DNA of 64,000 bases from Croceivirga lutea (lineage in GTDB: Bacteria; Bacteroidota; Bacteroidia; Flavobacteriales; Flavobacteriaceae): assembly GCF_014235875.1 (NCBI RefSeq), contig NZ_JACJUK010000002.1, positions 310,001-374,000 of the forward strand. Direction: 5' to 3'. Each line of letters starts with the position of its first letter. Position 1 is the first letter of the stretch. This document shows positions 2,148 to 20,933 of the stretch, in pieces. The notes beneath the pieces are model-generated. The model did not search any database and had not been told where the DNA came from. It saw only the letters and a list, made by a program, of their open reading frames with translations. The translations under genes were made by a program, and so were the position numbers.

Positions 2148-2528
2148 TTAATTATTGGTTAAAATGCGAAATAGTAAATAACCCCATCCTCCTATTAACA
2201 TTGTACCACCTATTGGAGTGATAATTCCGATTTTTCTAAAATCAAAGGCAGTTAAATTGTTGGTTGCTAGTAGATAAATTGAAAAAGAAAACAAGATTAC
2301 ACCTAAAGTTATAAGAATATAAACTGGCTTTTTAGCTACTTCATTTAAAGTTAATACACTTAAAAAAATTAAAAATAAAGCATGATACATTTGATACTTT
2401 ACCCCTGTCTCAAAGGTGTTTAATTCTTCTGGTGATAGTACTTTTTTGAGTCCGTGTGCTCCAAAAGCACCCAAAACCACAGCAAGTATGCCAAAGACTA
2501 ATCCTGTAATTAAAATTGTTTTATTCAT
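2148..2528 (-). CDS. DUF423 family small membrane protein
   Basis: A 126-residue inner membrane protein with about four hydrophobic helices. The conserved N-terminal stretch FGAHGLKKVL, followed by FETGVKYQMYHALFL, is the DUF423 (YgdD-like) signature. The biochemical function of the family is unknown. It is divergent from the saccharopine dehydrogenase gene, with 73 bases between the two starts, and is followed by pckA on the same strand. Confidence 0.88.
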   Translation of the reverse strand: MNKTILITGLVFGILAVVLGAFGAHGLKKVLSPEELNTFETGVKYQMYHALFLIFLSVLTLNEVAKKPVYILITLGVILFSFSIYLLATNNLTAFDFRKIGIITPIGGTMLIGGWGYLLFRILTNN

Positions 2529-2601
2529 AACTTTTTATCGTCTTTTTATTAGAAAATATAACAAGTTGCTATTTTAGAACTCTGAAAACAAAAATACACC
2601 T

Positions 2602-3975
2602 ATGTCTAGAAATATATTAGTTATTGGAGCTGGTAAATCTACTGCTCATTTACTTGATTACTTTTTTGATAAATCAGAAGAGGAGCAACTTTACATTACC
2701 ATAGCTGATTTAAACCCAGACAACCTGCCTGAACATATTAGAAATCATAAAAATTGTAATCCTGTTAAACTAGATATTACAGATGTTAATGCCAGAAATA
2801 TTTGCATTGAAAAGGCGGACATTGTGGTTTCTATGCTTCCTGCCCGTATGCATTTAATAGTAGCACAAGATTGTTTAACATTTAATAAAAACCTCATAAC
2901 CGCTTCTTATGTAAGCAATGATCTCTTAAAACTAGATGAGGAAGTTAAAAAGAAAGGTCTTGTTTTTATGAATGAAATTGGTCTTGACCCTGGTATTGAC
3001 CATATGAGTGCCATGGAAGTTATTGATAGAATACGTGCTAAAGGCGGTAAAATACTGCTTTTTGAATCTTTTACAGGTGGATTAGTAGCACCTGAAAATG
3101 ATAATAACCTATGGAATTATAAATTTACATGGAATCCAAGAAATGTGGTGTTAGCCGGTCAGGGCGGTGCTGCAAAATTTATACAAGAGGGTACTTATAA
3201 ATACATTCCTTACCACAAACTATTCAGACGTACAGAATTTTTAGATATAGCTGGGTATGGAAAATTTGAAGGCTATGCTAACAGAGACTCATTAAAGTAT
3301 AGAGAAGCTTATGGGTTAACTAATGCGTTAACTCTTTATAGAGGCACTATGCGTAGAGTAGGATTTTCAAAAGCATGGAATATGTTTGTACAATTAGGAA
3401 TGACAGATGATTCTTATCAGATTGAGAATACAAACGGTATGTCTTACAGAGAATTTGTAAATCTGTTTTTACCATACTCCCCTACAGATTCTGTTGAATT
3501 AAAACTAAGACATTACCTTAAAATTGATCAAGATGATATTATGTGGGAAAAATTAGAAGAACTCGATTTGTTCAGCCCTTCTAAAAAAATTACCATTGAA
3601 AACGCTACACCTGCACAATGTTTACAAACTATTTTGGAAAATAGCTGGACACTTGGTAGCAATGAAAAAGACATGATTGTGATGTACCATAAATTTGGTT
3701 ATGAACTAAACGGAGTAAAGAAACAAATAGATGCCAACATGGTGGTTTTAGGCGAAAATAAATCTCATACTGCTATGTCTAAAACTGTTGGGTTACCCGT
3801 TGCTATAGCCACCCTGCAAATACTCAATAAAAAAATTACCAAACCTGGCGTTCAAATACCTATTACCAAAGAAGTGTATGAACCTATTCTCAATGAACTT
3901 AAAAAGTACGATATCATTTTTAATGAGTTCGAAGTACCGTATTTAGGTTATAATCCTGACTCAGTAGCAAGTTAA
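2602..3975 (+). CDS. Saccharopine dehydrogenase family protein
   Basis: A 457-residue cytoplasmic oxidoreductase. The N-terminus NILVIGAGKSTAHLLDYF is a Rossmann dinucleotide-binding motif, followed by an aspartate-rich second strand (IADLNPDN). The middle FMNEIGLDPGIDHMSAM is a strong mark of saccharopine dehydrogenase and lysine-ketoglutarate reductase-like enzymes. It probably works in lysine catabolism through saccharopine, although other family members act on different amino acid adducts. An Lrp/AsnC regulator gene starts 47 bases downstream on the same strand, which fits amino acid-responsive control. Confidence 0.88.
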   Translation: MSRNILVIGAGKSTAHLLDYFFDKSEEEQLYITIADLNPDNLPEHIRNHKNCNPVKLDITDVNARNICIEKADIVVSMLPARMHLIVAQDCLTFNKNLITASYVSNDLLKLDEEVKKKGLVFMNEIGLDPGIDHMSAMEVIDRIRAKGGKILLFESFTGGLVAPENDNNLWNYKFTWNPRNVVLAGQGGAAKFIQEGTYKYIPYHKLFRRTEFLDIAGYGKFEGYANRDSLKYREAYGLTNALTLYRGTMRRVGFSKAWNMFVQLGMTDDSYQIENTNGMSYREFVNLFLPYSPTDSVELKLRHYLKIDQDDIMWEKLEELDLFSPSKKITIENATPAQCLQTILENSWTLGSNEKDMIVMYHKFGYELNGVKKQIDANMVVLGENKSHTAMSKTVGLPVAIATLQILNKKITKPGVQIPITKEVYEPILNELKKYDIIFNEFEVPYLGYNPDSVAS

Positions 3976-14405: not shown

Positions 14406-15122
14406 ATGAACTTGACCCGAAAGCAGTTATCATTATTGATTACCGTCTTTACTATGGCCAATGTTGTGCTATTATCATACAACATTCACCTTGGTGCTAA
14501 AGAAGAAGATGAGTATGTTATTGAAATGAGCCTCGCTGAAGAAGACTTGGAGGAGTTATTTGAAGAGAAAGAAAAATTAGAAGAGCTTGCTCAGAATAAC
14601 AGCCCTATTGAAAGTCATACCGCCTATAATGAAGCTGCCAAATCATCTTATGGTAACCCAGAACCTCTTAAGACTCTTGACGAACTCTTAGAAGAACGCG
14701 AAGCTACTAATCAGCAAGAATTATTAAGTAACGACAACGGTTTTGCTGCTAATTTAAAAGAGCTTGCTAAAAAACGGGAAGAGCGTAAACGTGAGTTAGG
14801 TGAAAAAAACGCAGATAAAAAAGAATACACCAATAACTTAAAAGATAAGCGTACCACAATTACCTATTCTTTAGTTGACCGTTCTGCTTACCATATTCCT
14901 CCACCTATTTATACCTGTATTGAAGGAGGTAAAGTTGTAATTAATATACAAGTTGATGAATTAGGTAATGTATTCGAAGCTAGTTTTAATGCCAAAAGCT
15001 CTACCACTTCTAACGGTTGTTTAGTGGAAAATGCAATTGCTTATGCGTATAAGGCTTCTTTTAACTCTTCAAAAAAACAAATGCAAAAAGGAACAATTAC
15101 CTATCAGTTTCAAGGTAAGTAA
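14406..15122 (+). CDS. TonB-like C-terminal domain membrane protein
   Basis: 238 residues. One N-terminal membrane helix (about 9-30, LLITVFTMANVVLLSYNI), a long acidic then charged segment rich in Glu and Lys (about 34-150, probably helical or extended), and a C-terminal region of about 85 residues with GGKVVINIQVDELGNV, then the cysteine pair TCIEGG and NGCLVENA, then TYQF. This resembles flavobacterial TonB C-terminal domains, so it may span the periplasm and contact outer membrane proteins. No ExbB/ExbD genes are nearby. It overlaps the thioredoxin-like gene tail to tail by 26 bases. Confidence 0.72.
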   Translation: MNLTRKQLSLLITVFTMANVVLLSYNIHLGAKEEDEYVIEMSLAEEDLEELFEEKEKLEELAQNNSPIESHTAYNEAAKSSYGNPEPLKTLDELLEEREATNQQELLSNDNGFAANLKELAKKREERKRELGEKNADKKEYTNNLKDKRTTITYSLVDRSAYHIPPPIYTCIEGGKVVINIQVDELGNVFEASFNAKSSTTSNGCLVENAIAYAYKASFNSSKKQMQKGTITYQFQGK

Positions 15123-15729
15123 GCAGTACTACCAAATCATTTAATATATCTTTTCCTTTGTCTTTGTTATACCACTTTTGAAGGTCTTGCTTAAATTCTG
15201 CCGTTAACTTACCATGTTCTTTTTTATAGTCTTCTACCATTTTGGTAGCTACAAATGACCTTGGACCCCACTCACCTATTACTGCATTAGTTTCTTGTTC
15301 TAACATAATTAACTTTGGTATTGAACGAGCACCATTAGTAAGAAAAGCATCCATTAGTTCGAGGTTTTCATCTCTAAGAACTATTTTCAAATTAATATTT
15401 GGAGCCAATTCAGCAATTTTATTCATTACTGGTAGACTAGGAGAAGCATCTCCACACCAACTTTCAGTTAATACTAACCATGTTACTTTATCTTTAAATG
15501 AATTTATTTTTTGGGTAGCGTCAACATCTAACTTTAATGTTTTATCCCAACGGTTCATTCGTTTATCATTAAGCTGGGTATAATTAGCTAAGCTTTCAGT
15601 TTTTTCTGGACCTGTATTGGAATTTTGCTCGGCCAATAATTTAACCATAGCCCTATAATCACTATAACTTATACTTTTTACTAAAGCTTCATTTAATATT
15701 TCTGCTGACACTTTCTGAATTGTTTCCAT
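15097..15729 (-). CDS. Thioredoxin-fold protein with single active-site cysteine
   Basis: 210 residues, no signal peptide. The region VTWLVLTESWCGDASPSLPVM (83-103 in part) matches a thioredoxin-fold active site, but the second cysteine of CxxC is replaced: the motif reads CGDA with Cys92 only. That rules out a standard dithiol mechanism and suggests a monothiol or binding role. NLKIVLRDENLELMDAFLTNGARSIPKLI supplies the strand and cis-proline loop. The family is common in Bacteroidetes (thioredoxin family protein). Overlaps the 3' end of the TonB-like gene. Confidence 0.85.
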   Translation of the reverse strand: METIQKVSAEILNEALVKSISYSDYRAMVKLLAEQNSNTGPEKTESLANYTQLNDKRMNRWDKTLKLDVDATQKINSFKDKVTWLVLTESWCGDASPSLPVMNKIAELAPNINLKIVLRDENLELMDAFLTNGARSIPKLIMLEQETNAVIGEWGPRSFVATKMVEDYKKEHGKLTAEFKQDLQKWYNKDKGKDILNDLVVLLTYLETDR

Positions 15730-15838: not shown

Positions 15839-17233
15839 TTATAGCGCTTCTGGGTTTATTGCTAAGCTTTTAAATAGGTTAGCCTTTGCTCCCAAAAACT
15901 TATTTTGAACTTCAATCTTTTTTAATTGGGCGTCTATAAGTTTACTCTCTCTAGAGTTTATTAAGAATAAAGAACTTTCTCCAAAACTAAACTTACGTTC
16001 TTCAGCTGCTAACAGTTGCGAATAATTATTTACTATTTGCCCTATTAAGCCTGTTTGCTCTTGATACGAATCAATTTCTGTATACACTGCCAATATTTTA
16101 TTTCTAATAGATACCTCAGCATTATCTCTATCAAATTGAGCATCTTGCAATTTAAATTTTGCCAATTTTAAATCCCCTCTCTCTTTTCGTAAAAACAATG
16201 GAAAATATAAACTTACCCCGGCCTTGTAATTATCTGTTACCAAAGAATTTAATTGATCATAGCTTTGAGTTAAAAAGTTATACTCCACATCTAATTGAGG
16301 AAGTAATTTATTGGCTTTAAGGTTTCTATCTACTCGTAAGCCATCAACCTTATAATTTAACGACCTTAGCTTTGGATGATTCTCTATAGAAAAACTATCT
16401 AAGGGTTTTCCTAAAATTTCTAAGGTAAAATCAACACTGTTTTCGGGCTCTATTTCTGGAATTACATCAGGCTGCAACTCCACTGGAACATTATTAATCC
16501 ATAGGAAATTAGAAAGCTCTAACGATTTTTTTGCCAAGTTTAATTTGGCTTGTTCTAAGCCTAATCTTCTATTTTCGACAGCAATTTTTGCTTCAACCGT
16601 ATCTATAATAGCTATATCACCTAGTAGCGCACTTTGTTTTACACCCTCAAATCTGGTAGAAGCATTTATTAGAAAATCTCTGTAAATATCGGCTTCGTTA
16701 TACGCCTTTAACCAATCAAAATAAGCTAAAGATGCATCATACAAAACCTGGTTCACCAACAAATCTTGGTCTGCTTTTGCCTGCTCTCTAAAAAATTTAG
16801 CTTTGCGTAGGGTTGCCATTCGCTCATTAATCCAAGAGCCTCTTAATAATGAAGCTGAAACACCAACGGAATATAAACCATCTTCTGGCAAAGTTTCATC
16901 AGGATTTATAAAGTCTCCTTCATCCTGTTCAAAATTTCCCTTAATTTCTATACCGTAATAAGTTGGTATTTTAAAGGTGGCATTTAATCGATTCCAATAC
17001 TCGCTACCTTTAAATTCTTTACGGTTATAGTCAACTTCAATTTTTGGGTCAAAGCCTCCACGCGCTTTCATAAGGTTTGCTTGCCCTATAGAAACAGTTA
17101 GCTGAGCTTGCTTTGCTATAGGATGATACCTTTTTACATACCCCAAGTACTCATTAAATGTAAGTACCATATCATCTTGGGCAAAGCCAAAATTGAAGAA
17201 TATCAGAATTAAACCTAATACCAGACGCTTCAT
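15839..17233 (-). CDS. TolC family outer membrane efflux protein
   Basis: 464 residues with a signal peptide (MKRLVLGLILIFFNFGFA, cleaved before Q). It contains the long alpha-helical repeats typical of TolC-type proteins, including the central region with SIENHPKLRSLNYKVDGLRVDRN and YFPLFLRKERGDLKLAKFKL. It would form the trimeric outer membrane channel of the exporter. Its ATG overlaps the HlyD stop by four bases (ATGA), so it is the last gene of the tetR-ABC-HlyD-TolC operon. Confidence 0.92.
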   Translation of the reverse strand: MKRLVLGLILIFFNFGFAQDDMVLTFNEYLGYVKRYHPIAKQAQLTVSIGQANLMKARGGFDPKIEVDYNRKEFKGSEYWNRLNATFKIPTYYGIEIKGNFEQDEGDFINPDETLPEDGLYSVGVSASLLRGSWINERMATLRKAKFFREQAKADQDLLVNQVLYDASLAYFDWLKAYNEADIYRDFLINASTRFEGVKQSALLGDIAIIDTVEAKIAVENRRLGLEQAKLNLAKKSLELSNFLWINNVPVELQPDVIPEIEPENSVDFTLEILGKPLDSFSIENHPKLRSLNYKVDGLRVDRNLKANKLLPQLDVEYNFLTQSYDQLNSLVTDNYKAGVSLYFPLFLRKERGDLKLAKFKLQDAQFDRDNAEVSIRNKILAVYTEIDSYQEQTGLIGQIVNNYSQLLAAEERKFSFGESSLFLINSRESKLIDAQLKKIEVQNKFLGAKANLFKSLAINPEAL

Positions 17234-18588
17234 TTTTTTGCGGTTTTAGATGAAGAACCAGAGGTTTCTGGCTGATAATAATTTGGTGGGAAACCATTTA
17301 ATTGTCGCCATAATTCGAACCAAATTTGCACATCGTCTAGAAGGGCTAATGTGTTTGCGCCTGAACCAACCCTTAAATCTTTTGGCCACTCTTCTGCTGT
17401 TGGGTCTGGTGCCACCAAAACCCTATACTTTCCATTTGGGCTTATAAATGTTTCAATTGCCACTATTTCACCTCCGTAGGTACCATAAGATGCATTTGGC
17501 CAACCATTAAATACTATTGCGGGCCAACCATCAAACTGTATTCTTATTTTTTCACCAATATGCACTAAAGGCAAATCAATGGGGTCAACAAAAGTTTCAA
17601 CGGCCATATCATAATTAGCCGGCATAATTCCCACCAATCTATCGCCTTCCTTAAAGGTTTCACCTATACCTGCTTGTAATGCTTTATTGATAAAGCCATC
17701 TTGCGGGGCTCGAATGTAATGTAGCTGACTACGCATTTCGTAGTTGGTATATTCATTCTCTAGCTTTGTTACTTGGGCTTCAGAATCAAATTGATTAGAC
17801 TGAGCCGTCATCATCTCACTACGTGCTTTTGAGATTTTATCAGTGTATTCTGCTTGAACACGCCCAATTTCAACTTGAGCATTAATTACATCATTCTTAC
17901 TTGCTAAAAGCTTATTTTCTTGTGATATTAATTTTGCCTGAGTTTCTTGTAATTTAAGGCGTTTTTCTTCTGTATCTGTCATTGCCTTTAGCCCTTCTGA
18001 TTGTAGTTGAACTACACGATCATATTGCCGTTGCGCAATTGTAATATTAGTTTTAGCAGCCTCTAAATCAATACTATCACTTTGTACCTTTAACTTAGAT
18101 TGCAAGAGCTTATTTTTTGCTTGCTGTAATTTTAAACCTCTTTCTTGGTTTAAAGCACTAATTTGAGTGTTCAACGCTTTTACTTTTTCTTGGTATGAGG
18201 TAACAGACATTTCTTTTGCCTTTAATTGCATGCCTGTTCGTTCTACTAACCTAGGGTCAAAATATTCGTTTTTAACCTCTGAAATAAACAGAATTGTATC
18301 TCCCTTTTTAACAAAATCACCCTCTCTTACAAACCACTTTTCTATTCTACCAGGTATTGGTGACTGTATAGTTTGTGGTCTTTGATCAGGGGTTAAAGTG
18401 GTTAAATAACCTTTACCAGATATGGTTTGGGTCCAAGGCAAAAACAGTATGATTAGTACGATAATGGAAAATGCTAATAAGAACTGATTAAACCTTTTAT
18501 AGTGTCTTTTATGAAAGACTCTTTCTCCGGCTTTGTACTTAGACAAATCAACCGTTCTATTCAATTTATTTGGTGATATGTTAAGCAT
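17230..18588 (-). CDS. HlyD-type membrane fusion protein
   Basis: 452 residues. One membrane helix near 35-52 (FLLAFSIIVLIILFLPW), a barrel/lipoyl half motif (SPIPGRIEKWFVREGDFVKKGD, about 76-97), a long coiled coil (about 125-290) and the second lipoyl half with IRAPQDGFINKAL, then a beta-barrel domain. It bridges the inner membrane ABC subunit and TolC. Its start overlaps the ABC gene end by eight bases, showing tight coupling. Confidence 0.93.
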   Translation of the reverse strand: MLNISPNKLNRTVDLSKYKAGERVFHKRHYKRFNQFLLAFSIIVLIILFLPWTQTISGKGYLTTLTPDQRPQTIQSPIPGRIEKWFVREGDFVKKGDTILFISEVKNEYFDPRLVERTGMQLKAKEMSVTSYQEKVKALNTQISALNQERGLKLQQAKNKLLQSKLKVQSDSIDLEAAKTNITIAQRQYDRVVQLQSEGLKAMTDTEEKRLKLQETQAKLISQENKLLASKNDVINAQVEIGRVQAEYTDKISKARSEMMTAQSNQFDSEAQVTKLENEYTNYEMRSQLHYIRAPQDGFINKALQAGIGETFKEGDRLVGIMPANYDMAVETFVDPIDLPLVHIGEKIRIQFDGWPAIVFNGWPNASYGTYGGEIVAIETFISPNGKYRVLVAPDPTAEEWPKDLRVGSGANTLALLDDVQIWFELWRQLNGFPPNYYQPETSGSSSKTAKK

Positions 18589-20263
18589 TGTTATTCTTTT
18601 TTTCGTTTAAGATTTTACCATATTCCATGGTGATTATTCGGTCACAATGATTTAACCATTTGGTGTTTTCACTAACGATGACTAAGGCCCAACCATTAGC
18701 AGGGTCTGTAATAAATTTCATCAACTCATCTGCCTCTTCTTTGTAAAATTGATCTAATGGATCTTTAAGCAATAATAATTTTGGCTTATTAATAATACTA
18801 CGCGCCAATACTATTTTCTTAGAAACGATATAGGGAATTTGTTTTCCTTCAGGATACAAAATGGTATGTATGCCCAAAGGTTGTTCTTTAACCCACTCTG
18901 TTAATTTGGTTTTTTCTAATACCCAATAAACTTGTTCTTGAGAAATATCTGGGTTACCAAAAGTGATGTTGTTTAGTAAGGTTCCTTCAAAGGGTGTTTC
19001 ATCACTTAATGAATGCCCTAAATGTGAACGATAATAATTGAGATGAACGCCTTTAAGCGAAACGTTATTTACATAAATACTACCATTATTTGGCTCTAAA
19101 ATACCTGCAATTAAACGTAAAAGGGTAGATCTACCAGAGCCTGCCTTTCCTTGTAATAAGATTCGACATTCTGGAGAAATGGTAAGCGAAACATTGTCGA
19201 TAATAGTTTTGTCTCTTTGAGGAACATTGAAAGAAACATCTTTAAGTTCTACCGTAAAACCTTCTGATTCTCTAAAAGGTTTTTCTCCTTCTTGTGACTC
19301 TAGTTCTTTATCTACAACTTGTCCTAGCTTTTCTAGTGAAGTAAGAATATCGTAGAAATTTTCTAGACCTAATATTAGCTTCTCAACTGAGCTAATAACT
19401 AATAAAATGATGATTTCTGCAGCTACAAATTGTCCGATATTCATTTCTTGATTAAGCACTAAAAGTCCGCCGATAAGCAATAAACCAGCAGTTACTAGCA
19501 CTTTAAAGCCAATCATTTGAATAAACTGAATTACTAATATTTTGAAGTGACTTTCTCTGGCATCTAAATAGTTAGCTACCAAGGTGTCATTTTTATCAAT
19601 TGCATGAGACGTTTTACCAGATAGTTTAAAACTTATAATACTACGAGCAACTTCTTGTATCCAGTGTGCTACTAGATATTTGTTTTTAGATTCTTGCAAA
19701 CTAGTATCTAAACCACGTTGAGCGGTAAATCTAAAAACAATGTAAATCAATAATAACAGTAGTAGACCGTAAATAATGAAAAAGGGGTGGTAGAAAGACA
19801 GCAGTATTAACCCAAAAATAATCTGAAGTAATGCCGCTGGAAAATCAATAAGAATTTTAGACAATCCTTTTTGAATGGTTAACGTATCAAAAAATCTATT
19901 TGCCAATTCTGGCGGATAAAAATTACGTAACTCACTCATTTTAATCTTCGGAAAACGATACGAAAATTCAAATGAAGAACGTGTAAATATTTTTTGCTGA
20001 ACGTTTTCTATAATACGTATCTGCATTAACTGTAAAAGTCCAACAAATGCTACGCCTAAAGTAACTAGAACAACTAACACTATCCAAGACGTACTCACTT
20101 GTGCACCTTGAATTAAGTTAATTATAGCCTGAATACCTAAGGGCAACGATAAGTTTACCAAACCTGCAAATATTGCATAGTAAAAGACCTGAAATATATC
20201 TTTCTTGTCTAACGAGAGTAGCCCAACAAAACGTTGCCAAGCTGTTAATATGTCTTTAGTCAT
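18581..20263 (-). CDS. ABC exporter subunit with degenerate ATPase domain
   Basis: 560 residues: a type I exporter membrane domain (about 25-310, six helices) and a nucleotide-binding domain (about 335-555) of the LapB/RtxB type. The ATPase motifs are eroded. Walker A is GKAGSGRST (372-380) with Arg378 in place of the lysine. The position of LSGGQ reads IPYIV (476-480). Walker B ends LLLLKDP, with Lys500-Asp501 where Asp-Glu is expected. The switch histidine is Glu532 (IVSENTKW), and the Q-loop glutamine is missing. The flanking sequence still aligns (VLARSI, CDRIITMEYGKI). The domain probably has little or no ATPase activity. The operon holds no second ATPase. Confidence 0.88.
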   Translation of the reverse strand: MTKDILTAWQRFVGLLSLDKKDIFQVFYYAIFAGLVNLSLPLGIQAIINLIQGAQVSTSWIVLVVLVTLGVAFVGLLQLMQIRIIENVQQKIFTRSSFEFSYRFPKIKMSELRNFYPPELANRFFDTLTIQKGLSKILIDFPAALLQIIFGLILLSFYHPFFIIYGLLLLLLIYIVFRFTAQRGLDTSLQESKNKYLVAHWIQEVARSIISFKLSGKTSHAIDKNDTLVANYLDARESHFKILVIQFIQMIGFKVLVTAGLLLIGGLLVLNQEMNIGQFVAAEIIILLVISSVEKLILGLENFYDILTSLEKLGQVVDKELESQEGEKPFRESEGFTVELKDVSFNVPQRDKTIIDNVSLTISPECRILLQGKAGSGRSTLLRLIAGILEPNNGSIYVNNVSLKGVHLNYYRSHLGHSLSDETPFEGTLLNNITFGNPDISQEQVYWVLEKTKLTEWVKEQPLGIHTILYPEGKQIPYIVSKKIVLARSIINKPKLLLLKDPLDQFYKEEADELMKFITDPANGWALVIVSENTKWLNHCDRIITMEYGKILNEKKNNNA

Positions 20264-20933
20264 TGTTGAGTGTTTTTTTGACCATGTTTAGTAAAAATGC
20301 ACTAGGCTGCTTGTTTTCACTACAATTAGTCAAGGTAGGAAAGTGATCTTTTAAAAAGTGTTGATGTAAATTGGCTTCCATTATGGTGCTAGCCAAACTC
20401 GTAGGATAGCTATAATTTGAATCTACCGCAGCTATCATTGTAGATAGCCTGTTAACCATTCTTTTGTAAATTTCAAAGTATCCACTTTTGTTTTCGCCAT
20501 CAACCTCTTTGGTTAAATACGACTTAGATGACTCTTTAATCACAATTCTACCTAACACTACCTCATTAATATGATTAAATGTAGAATCTTCTTCAATGGT
20601 TTTTGTTACTATCTCAATGGCCTTCTCTAGTTTTTCCCAAGGATTAGAAATGCTGTTTGTAGCAAACACCAATTTGTATTCTACCCAACCCCAATACCAA
20701 CTGGTTAAATACACCAATAATTTGTGCTTGTTTTCAAAATACCGGTAAATAGAACTTTCGTTGGAGCCAATTTTAGCGCCTAACTTTTTAAAGGTAAATG
20801 CTTCAAAACCTATCTCATCTATCATTAAAATACTATGAGAAACTATTTTCTTTCCTAAACCAGAAGACTCTGGGTCCTTTAAATAGATTTTATGATTAAT
20901 AGAGATTTTGACCGAGTTTAATAACTGATCCAT
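20256..20933 (-). CDS. TetR family transcriptional regulator
   Basis: 225 residues. The helix-turn-helix lies at about 40-70: IGFEAFTFKKLGAKIGSNESSIYRYFENKHKLLVYL, a classic TetR pattern. The C-terminal ligand domain has no recognisable specificity. It is the first gene of the exporter operon and overlaps the ABC gene by eight bases, so it probably represses its own operon from the repeat-rich site at 20955-20986. Confidence 0.92.
   Translation of the reverse strand: MDQLLNSVKISINHKIYLKDPESSGLGKKIVSHSILMIDEIGFEAFTFKKLGAKIGSNESSIYRYFENKHKLLVYLTSWYWGWVEYKLVFATNSISNPWEKLEKAIEIVTKTIEEDSTFNHINEVVLGRIVIKESSKSYLTKEVDGENKSGYFEIYKRMVNRLSTMIAAVDSNYSYPTSLASTIMEANLHQHFLKDHFPTLTNCSENKQPSAFLLNMVKKTLNND

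Follow-up and report, generated by a model that had tools for sequence, protein, structure and literature searches.

Loss of ATPase motifs in an ABC exporter subunit encoded with HlyD and TolC partners in Croceivirga lutea and its relatives

We analysed a 64,000-nucleotide stretch of the Croceivirga lutea genome (contig NZ_JACJUK010000002.1, positions 310,001 to 374,000; called the window, in which all coordinates are given) that encodes, on the minus strand at 18581..20263, a pseudo-ATPase subunit of an ATP-binding cassette (ABC) exporter, 560 residues long and recognised by its open reading frame (ORF), by Pfam and by motif reading. The loss of ATPase motifs is shared by a large, selected and operon-bound family, in which the transmembrane domain (TMD) is the most constrained part and of which one large clade does without the whole nucleotide-binding domain (NBD). 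Taken as a whole, the best explanation, to which the sequences lead us to give even chances, would be an ATPase-dead membrane subunit of a tripartite exporter with a predicted ion-gradient drive and an NBD kept as a pseudo-ATPase.

ATPase motifs of the window protein and of its family

The ORF runs uninterrupted from ATG to stop, and the protein scored above the Pfam cut-offs for both ABC_membrane (36.5 against 28 bits) and ABC_tran (56.9 against 25 bits), in agreement with the initial annotation, made from the sequence alone, that membrane domain and NBD are in frame. The same annotation had described the ATPase motifs as nearly all lost; the replacements were found as numbered there, and the claim understates the case. 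Motif reading placed Arg378 at the Lys of Walker A (GKAGSGRST, 19124..19150), Lys500-Asp501 at the Asp-Glu of Walker B (LLLLKD, 18761..18778) and Glu532 at the H-switch position instead of His (18668..18670), and by alignment the Q-loop Gln is Ser420 (19004..19006) and LSGGQ is replaced by IPYIV at the signature position, residues 476-480 (18824..18838), all on the minus strand. The top NCBIfam models were type 1 secretion and peptide-export ABC proteins, all far below cut-off (TIGR03375, 181.1 versus 693.1 bits; TIGR01846, 141.4 versus 725.55 bits). A close paralogue was not found in the same genome, where the next relatives show about 23% identity.

Three of these next relatives in the genome, the control exporters L002, L003 and L004, carry a canonical Walker A, LSGGQ and switch His, with a Walker B of DE in L002 and L004 and of DD in L003; this control covers those three proteins, a further full-length exporter (C17:74728) lying outside it. 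An alignment artefact is an unlikely origin of the motif loss, as the tblastn and MAFFT readings were concordant and the exporters of the same genome aligned canonically. The replacements in the window protein are not due to chance, and similar ones recur across the family. As a separate observation, the Walker B of L003 has Asp in place of the catalytic Glu while its LSGGQ is intact.

In an ABC dimer each ATP site is built from the Walker A and B motifs of one NBD and the signature of the other. Because the window protein lacks both Walker B and signature, no complete site would form in a homodimer or in a heterodimer with an intact partner, and this composite-site logic, together with the existence of NBD-free members, argues against an intact heterodimer partner. 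Given these incomplete sites, the loss of the P-loop in several lineages and the loss of the whole NBD in one, hydrolysis by the subunit is very unlikely, and its absence is among the claims that we hold with most confidence.

Matches at E 1e-60 or better were found in 232 of 397 genomes of the same family (taken as Flavobacteriaceae), from 156 of 237 genera and with one match per genome where listed; motifs were read in the fetched sequences, among which most of these 232 matches do not figure. A named-contig scan gave 565 relatives, and the best 80 of them, which were kept, include Allomuricauda, Flagellimonas, Maribacter, Aquimarina, Croceitalea, Eudoraea and Robiginitalea. A first motif reading of 110 rows, with the window copy among them, was extended to a final set of 208 rows, reduced by removal of 11 identical repeats to 197 distinct sequences, the window protein counted in. 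These comprise 157 with an NBD lacking the Walker B 'DE', 12 with 'DE', 27 without an NBD and one, L207, that is cut by a contig end and had first been scored with these, making 28. The class of 157 is defined by the missing 'DE', so that this loss holds by construction; the other motif positions are independent of the definition. Its Walker B pairs are KD in 104 sequences, ED in 32, EE in 7 and other pairs in 14, and its Walker A residue is Lys in 142, Arg in 14 (the window protein being one of these) and Val in one. The second Gly of the signature was present once, the switch His once (L027) and a Gln in the Q-loop column nine times, and at most two of the residues K, D, E and H are kept in any one sequence. 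In two members, L177 and L180, an LSGG string precedes the aligned signature position by six residues.

All 12 'DE' sequences among the 169 distinct NBD-bearing ones are distant and come from genomes outside the class. The Q-loop Gln is absent in each of the 12, so the 'DE' members may not be standard ATPases either. Since the collections favour close relatives, 26 weaker-scoring genomes of the same family were picked by hand (E 1e-142 to 3e-226); 'DE' was absent from all 24 of the divergent proteins that reach Walker B, and of the 25 that extend to Walker A, six (L254, L255 and L259 to L262) have a destroyed P-loop, as do L150, L234 and three sphingomonad rows. The initial annotation had proposed checking the changed positions across genera and had named intact copies in close relatives as evidence to the contrary. 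Similar replacements recurred across the family, and the intact copies that were sought were not found: the 12 'DE' sequences lie outside the class, and the divergent members of the same family gave none. Beyond what that annotation had considered, the ATPase-dead state is family-wide and the NBD is lost in some members.

The sphingomonad rows L231, L232 and L235 are plasmid-borne and show the same ABC-HlyD-TolC order, with an NBD that has neither P-loop nor Walker B, and the annotation of two of them reads 'ABC transporter transmembrane domain-containing protein'. In another genome, G150, a relative of the control exporter L002 is split into two overlapping frames (L219, L220) and is either broken or affected by a sequencing error.

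Members without an NBD, selection and the operon

In a search of 392 genomes of the phylum, 99 matched at E 1e-45, and in six of these the match consisted of the TMD only. The six loci encode proteins of 332-339 residues, directly followed by HlyD and TolC in every case, and the 27 distinct TMD-only members measure 330-339 residues. When 151 genomes of another family were searched with a TMD-only query, 66 matched and the gene was TMD-only in 24 of them; these 24 genes, which include the query, share 62-100% identity with it, and an HlyD gene adjoined the TMD-only gene in 24 of 24 short loci. With the NBD of the nearest NBD-bearing relative as query, the matches listed in the six TMD-only genomes comprised, besides the TMD, generic ABC proteins only, with no detached cognate NBD among them. 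L207 and L263 (G901) have a TMD-only look but are cut by contig ends and were dropped, as was L264 (G906, another family; 2350-3165), a truncated TMD relic with no HlyD or TolC among the adjoining listed ORFs. Within that other family, three genera (codes g252, g254 and g241) each have the TMD-only version in some species and the NBD-bearing one in others, every genome giving one match, a pattern suggestive of horizontal exchange or the sorting of old copies.

Ratios of nonsynonymous to synonymous substitution rates (dN/dS) were obtained for 17 close pairs drawn from 110 sequences, of which 15 are different (L013 and L043 are one gene) and which are not independent of each other. The TMD had a median of 0.016 and the NBD one of 0.036; the medians of the partner genes were 0.027 (HlyD), 0.028 (TolC, 14 pairs) and 0.042 (TetR, 13 pairs). 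Constraint was looser in the pair that had diverged most, at 0.067 (TMD) and 0.184 (NBD). The window protein and ten orthologues share on average 88% identity in the TMD and 69% in the NBD, compared with 84 and 85% for L002 (seven orthologues, the split copy left out) and 80 and 79% for L003 (ten) in the same ten genomes. The NBD is thus under purifying selection yet looser than the TMD, unlike in two other exporters of the same genomes. The degenerate NBD also has residues of its own: a Tyr-Pro-Glu-Gly block at 470-473, and Trp536 and Cys540, found in 136 and 139, respectively, of the 157 sequences and in none of the 12 'DE' rows. With these private residues it looks repurposed and not decaying. 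The view of the initial annotation that the gene is not a pseudogene is in line with these ratios, with the breadth of the family and with the conservation of the operon.

A maximum-likelihood tree of the TMD was built from 77 selected rows, leaving out the sphingomonads and three 'DE' rows (L148, L160 and L161). Its nine 'DE' rows are split from the 68 others by a branch with 100/100 support. Parsimony on this tree counted one change for 'DE', four for the P-loop and one for the presence of the NBD, with Lys to Arg in two places; the counts carry no direction, and speaking of loss depends on rooting at the 'DE' side. The changes are read as losses because the 'DE' rows are deepest also in a tree with other exporters as outgroup, an outgroup that is very long-branched. 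The TMD-only clade is nested with proteins of 724-732 residues that already have ND or TD in Walker B, so that ATPase death preceded loss of the NBD. When the sphingomonad rows were included they fell inside the 'DE' side on a branch of 3.89 changes per column; their composition is odd, and a second, independent ATPase loss in sphingomonads is proposed tentatively from this placement. For three 'DE' members the top NCBIfam models were NHLM peptide exporters and one type 1 secretion ATPase, far below cut-off. Long members of the family (679-832 residues) are extended at the N-terminus by a region positioned like the C39-like domain of HlyB-type proteins; this region gave no Pfam match above cut-off in L154, L158 and L177, and that of L154 had no convincing counterpart among PDB sequences (best E 0.51).

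The operon is read on the minus strand and begins with a TetR-type regulator of 225 residues (20256..20933), followed by the ABC gene, a HlyD-type periplasmic adaptor of 452 residues (17230..18588) and a TolC-type outer-membrane channel of 464 residues (15839..17233), the three partners being identified by domain search and synteny. TetR and ABC genes overlap by 8 bp, ABC and HlyD by 8 bp and HlyD and TolC by 4 bp, just the tight tetR-ABC-HlyD-TolC arrangement that had been described initially. Window ORFs and Pfam gave no second ATPase gene and no partner half-transporter among the four operon genes, which upholds the earlier statement on the missing ATPase, and there was no ATPase gene in those operons of relatives that were read, TMD-only loci included. 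Among the 80 named loci, HlyD was present in 78, TolC in 77 and TetR in 78, and the 8-bp TetR-ABC overlap of the window was the commonest junction (49 of the 78 loci with TetR); a set of 40 loci, some of them truncated where the contig stops, contained 38 with HlyD, 37 with TolC and 13 with TetR. Across 30 genomes of the same family, a HlyD of the same type (E 1e-20) occurred in all ten carriers of the ABC gene and in none of 20 non-carriers. The whole machine is gained and lost as one unit.

Among the window ORFs no substrate gene was recognised adjoining the protein. A small TonB-like gene, named by eye, and a thioredoxin-like gene adjoin the operon at 14406-15729, and such neighbours lie near the operon in 56 and 59, respectively, of the 80 named loci, some of which are on short contigs. 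In a Riemerella record filed as a plasmid (L236), ordinary cell-wall and rRNA-methylation genes adjoin the operon, and the record may be a piece of chromosome.

Energy source of the exporter

In the mechanism that we propose, the window protein would form the inner-membrane part of a tripartite exporter linked to TolC; descended from a type 1 secretion or peptide-exporter ABC protein, it would have lost ATP hydrolysis, and its TMD dimer would still pass substrate through HlyD and TolC. The drive would be an ion (proton) gradient acting, as in SbmA, on the charges Lys/Arg254, Glu283, Glu294 and Lys295 of the transmembrane helices TM5 and TM6, and the leftover NBD would be a repurposed pseudo-ATPase with a structural, docking or regulatory role. 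The parts of this proposal differ in strength. It is reasonably probable that the exporter is still active without any ATPase; that an ion gradient drives it, a view that leans on the analogy with SbmA, is possible and falls somewhat short of even, and such a gradient is the likeliest candidate for the energy source.

The charges stand out in the conservation of the TMD (residues 1-335, 19259..20263), the most conserved part of the protein and the sole part left in NBD-less relatives. In 196 sequences (the 12 'DE', 157 degenerate and 27 TMD-only members), Glu283 was present in all 196; an acidic residue stood at position 294 in 195 of them, and basic residues at position 295 in 194 and at position 254 of TM5 (Lys or Arg) in 195. 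By hydropathy all four fall within hydrophobic stretches, Glu283, Glu294 and Lys295 within that of TM6 (residues 277-300, 19364..19435; hydropathy and conservation). Three other exporters of the genome did not show the TM5/TM6 pattern in a loose alignment, in which L003 has a Glu one column from 283. Residues of the cytosolic loops (N122, R123, Q131, K132, K136, E191, K195, R236 and H239) are near invariant as well, TMD-only members included; the 12 'DE' rows comprise 9 with E191 and 10 with R236. An AlphaFold model from 69 rows had a mean predicted local distance difference test score (pLDDT) of 66.9 and a predicted TM-score (pTM) of 0.46; ten-residue blocks scored 64-88 from residue 331 on and 31-73 before, and the fold of the NBD is predicted to be kept. 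The top Foldseek match was HlyB in the HlyB/D complex 8dck (E 1.2e-24, TM-score 0.46), and the TMD alone had no match to PDB sequences at E 0.01.

Several points weigh against the proposal. The TM5/TM6 charges are also present in the 12 'DE' proteins and so are not specific to the ATPase-free state, and they may instead serve folding or substrate handling. Loop residues that would contact an NBD are kept even in TMD-only members, which leaves room for a possible recruited NBD. The confidence of the AlphaFold model is mostly good in the NBD and low in the TMD, and nothing at atomic detail is claimed from it. The degenerate NBD is still purified by selection and mostly retains the Walker A Lys, so that nucleotide binding may matter, and the motif loss is graded and not uniform, as the nine Q-loop Gln residues and the LSGG strings of L177 and L180 attest. 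Finally, the predicted transport, lack of ATPase activity and use of the proton motive force are all read from sequence.

The initial annotation had left three options, a different energy source, an ATPase borrowed from elsewhere and a subunit turned scaffold; borrowing is disfavoured, whereas another energy source and a scaffolding NBD are compatible with the data and may both be true. As a scaffold or passive gate, the subunit would hold HlyD and TolC while the substrate follows its own gradient or is moved by another pump, with the NBD as structural base. The dispensability of the catalytic motifs, and of the NBD too, speaks for such a role, and a structural part for ABC dimers in rings is conceivable given the three HlyB dimers and six HlyD reported in the available part of the work on the HlyB/HlyD complex (PMC11026475). 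The extreme constraint on the TMD (median dN/dS of 0.016), which includes the charges within the membrane, seems to exceed the needs of a passive frame, and we consider this explanation unlikely, while giving it more weight than the other alternatives. If an ATPase were instead borrowed in trans, a separate NBD protein would dock on the conserved cytosolic loops, whose nine near-invariant residues in TMD-only members would suit it. In NBD-bearing members the docking site would already be filled by their own NBD, however, and a heterodimer with one intact NBD would have no complete composite site; no ATPase gene was seen in the operons read, nor was a cognate detached NBD among the matches listed in the six TMD-only genomes, where generic ABC proteins abound, any of which could in principle be lent. 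We consider borrowing improbable.

A comparably small chance is left to a switch that binds ATP without hydrolysing it, in which nucleotide at the retained Walker A would gate the transporter like the degenerate sites of heterodimers. The Walker A Lys of 142 of the 157 sequences would fit, and tight binding of ATP that is not hydrolysed is described for degenerate sites elsewhere in the accessible part of a review that covers exporters with one degenerate site (PMC7756269). The switch is at odds with the Arg of the window protein and 13 others of the 157, with the P-loop destroyed in the six divergent proteins, L150, L234 and three sphingomonad rows, and with the 27 members that have no NBD. 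That the gene is a relic under decay, its operon being lost and its ORF open by chance, would be consistent with the 165 of 397 same-family genomes without a match at E 1e-60 and with the truncated L264 of another family. Median dN/dS values of at most 0.042 for TMD, NBD, HlyD, TolC and TetR and the conserved overlapping operon leave this reading a negligible chance, and a decaying copy was rejected by dN/dS together with the breadth of the family.

ABC transporters are defined by ATP hydrolysis. An ABC-exporter fold turned ion-gradient transporter and still coupled to HlyD and TolC would be a further way to energise tripartite envelope pumps, a prospect that we put forward tentatively. Living members may represent its stages, with a 'DE' NBD, a dead NBD, an NBD without P-loop and no NBD, and a second loss may exist in sphingomonads. 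The supposed stages from primary pump to something else would then coexist in living Bacteroidota and on sphingomonad plasmids, in a simple operon, and the family makes it testable how a primary pump becomes something else and what role is left to an NBD unable to burn ATP. Annotations as 'ABC transporter ATP-binding protein' (L232 and L234, for example) can cover proteins that lack the motifs for binding or burning ATP.

Comparison with known systems

A search of the open PMC literature, of which parts of the texts were available, gave no description of this family, which does not prove its absence from print, and the accessible portions of PMC8277102 and PMC12003926 do not describe it. The HlyB, LssB/LapB, NHLM and PCAT types share with it the TMD-NBD half-transporter and the HlyD and TolC partners. 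Likeness to the HlyB type is seen in the top NCBIfam models (TIGR03375, TIGR03796/97) and in the extra N-terminal region of the long members; unlike the HlyB and LapB types, the present family lacks the ATPase motifs and includes an NBD-less clade, and the window protein has no N-terminal domain.

SbmA/BacA (SLiPT) resembles the family in having the TMD of an ABC exporter without an ATPase. In the part of the SbmA paper available (PMC13316013), SbmA is described as an ABC-fold, NBD-less transporter, proton-driven via a glutamate ladder and probably derived from an ABC exporter; the authors infer that a secondary transporter arose from one ABC membrane domain and mention some split TMD and NBD genes; their text nowhere uses the word 'degenerate'. 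The SbmA_BacA Pfam model had no match in the window protein or in three TMD-only proteins, so that kinship with SbmA was not recognised in sequence. Unlike SbmA, the present system has an adaptor and TolC, and the NBD is mostly kept as a pseudo-domain, with 27 distinct relatives lacking it. SbmA is reported without coupling helices, whereas the cytosolic-loop residues are near invariant here in each group, and SbmA imports, whereas the operon has the anatomy of an exporter.

With TmrAB, TM287/288 and MRP1 the family shares a degenerate NBD kept by selection. Those transporters keep one complete composite site; here both contributions are lost and the operon offers no partner half-transporter. 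Finally, EmrAB-TolC and the resistance-nodulation-division (RND) pumps, which are tripartite and run on the proton motive force, are alike in placing an adaptor and TolC around a membrane transporter, but their inner-membrane component belongs to the major facilitator superfamily (MFS) or is itself an RND protein, whereas here it has the fold of an ABC exporter.

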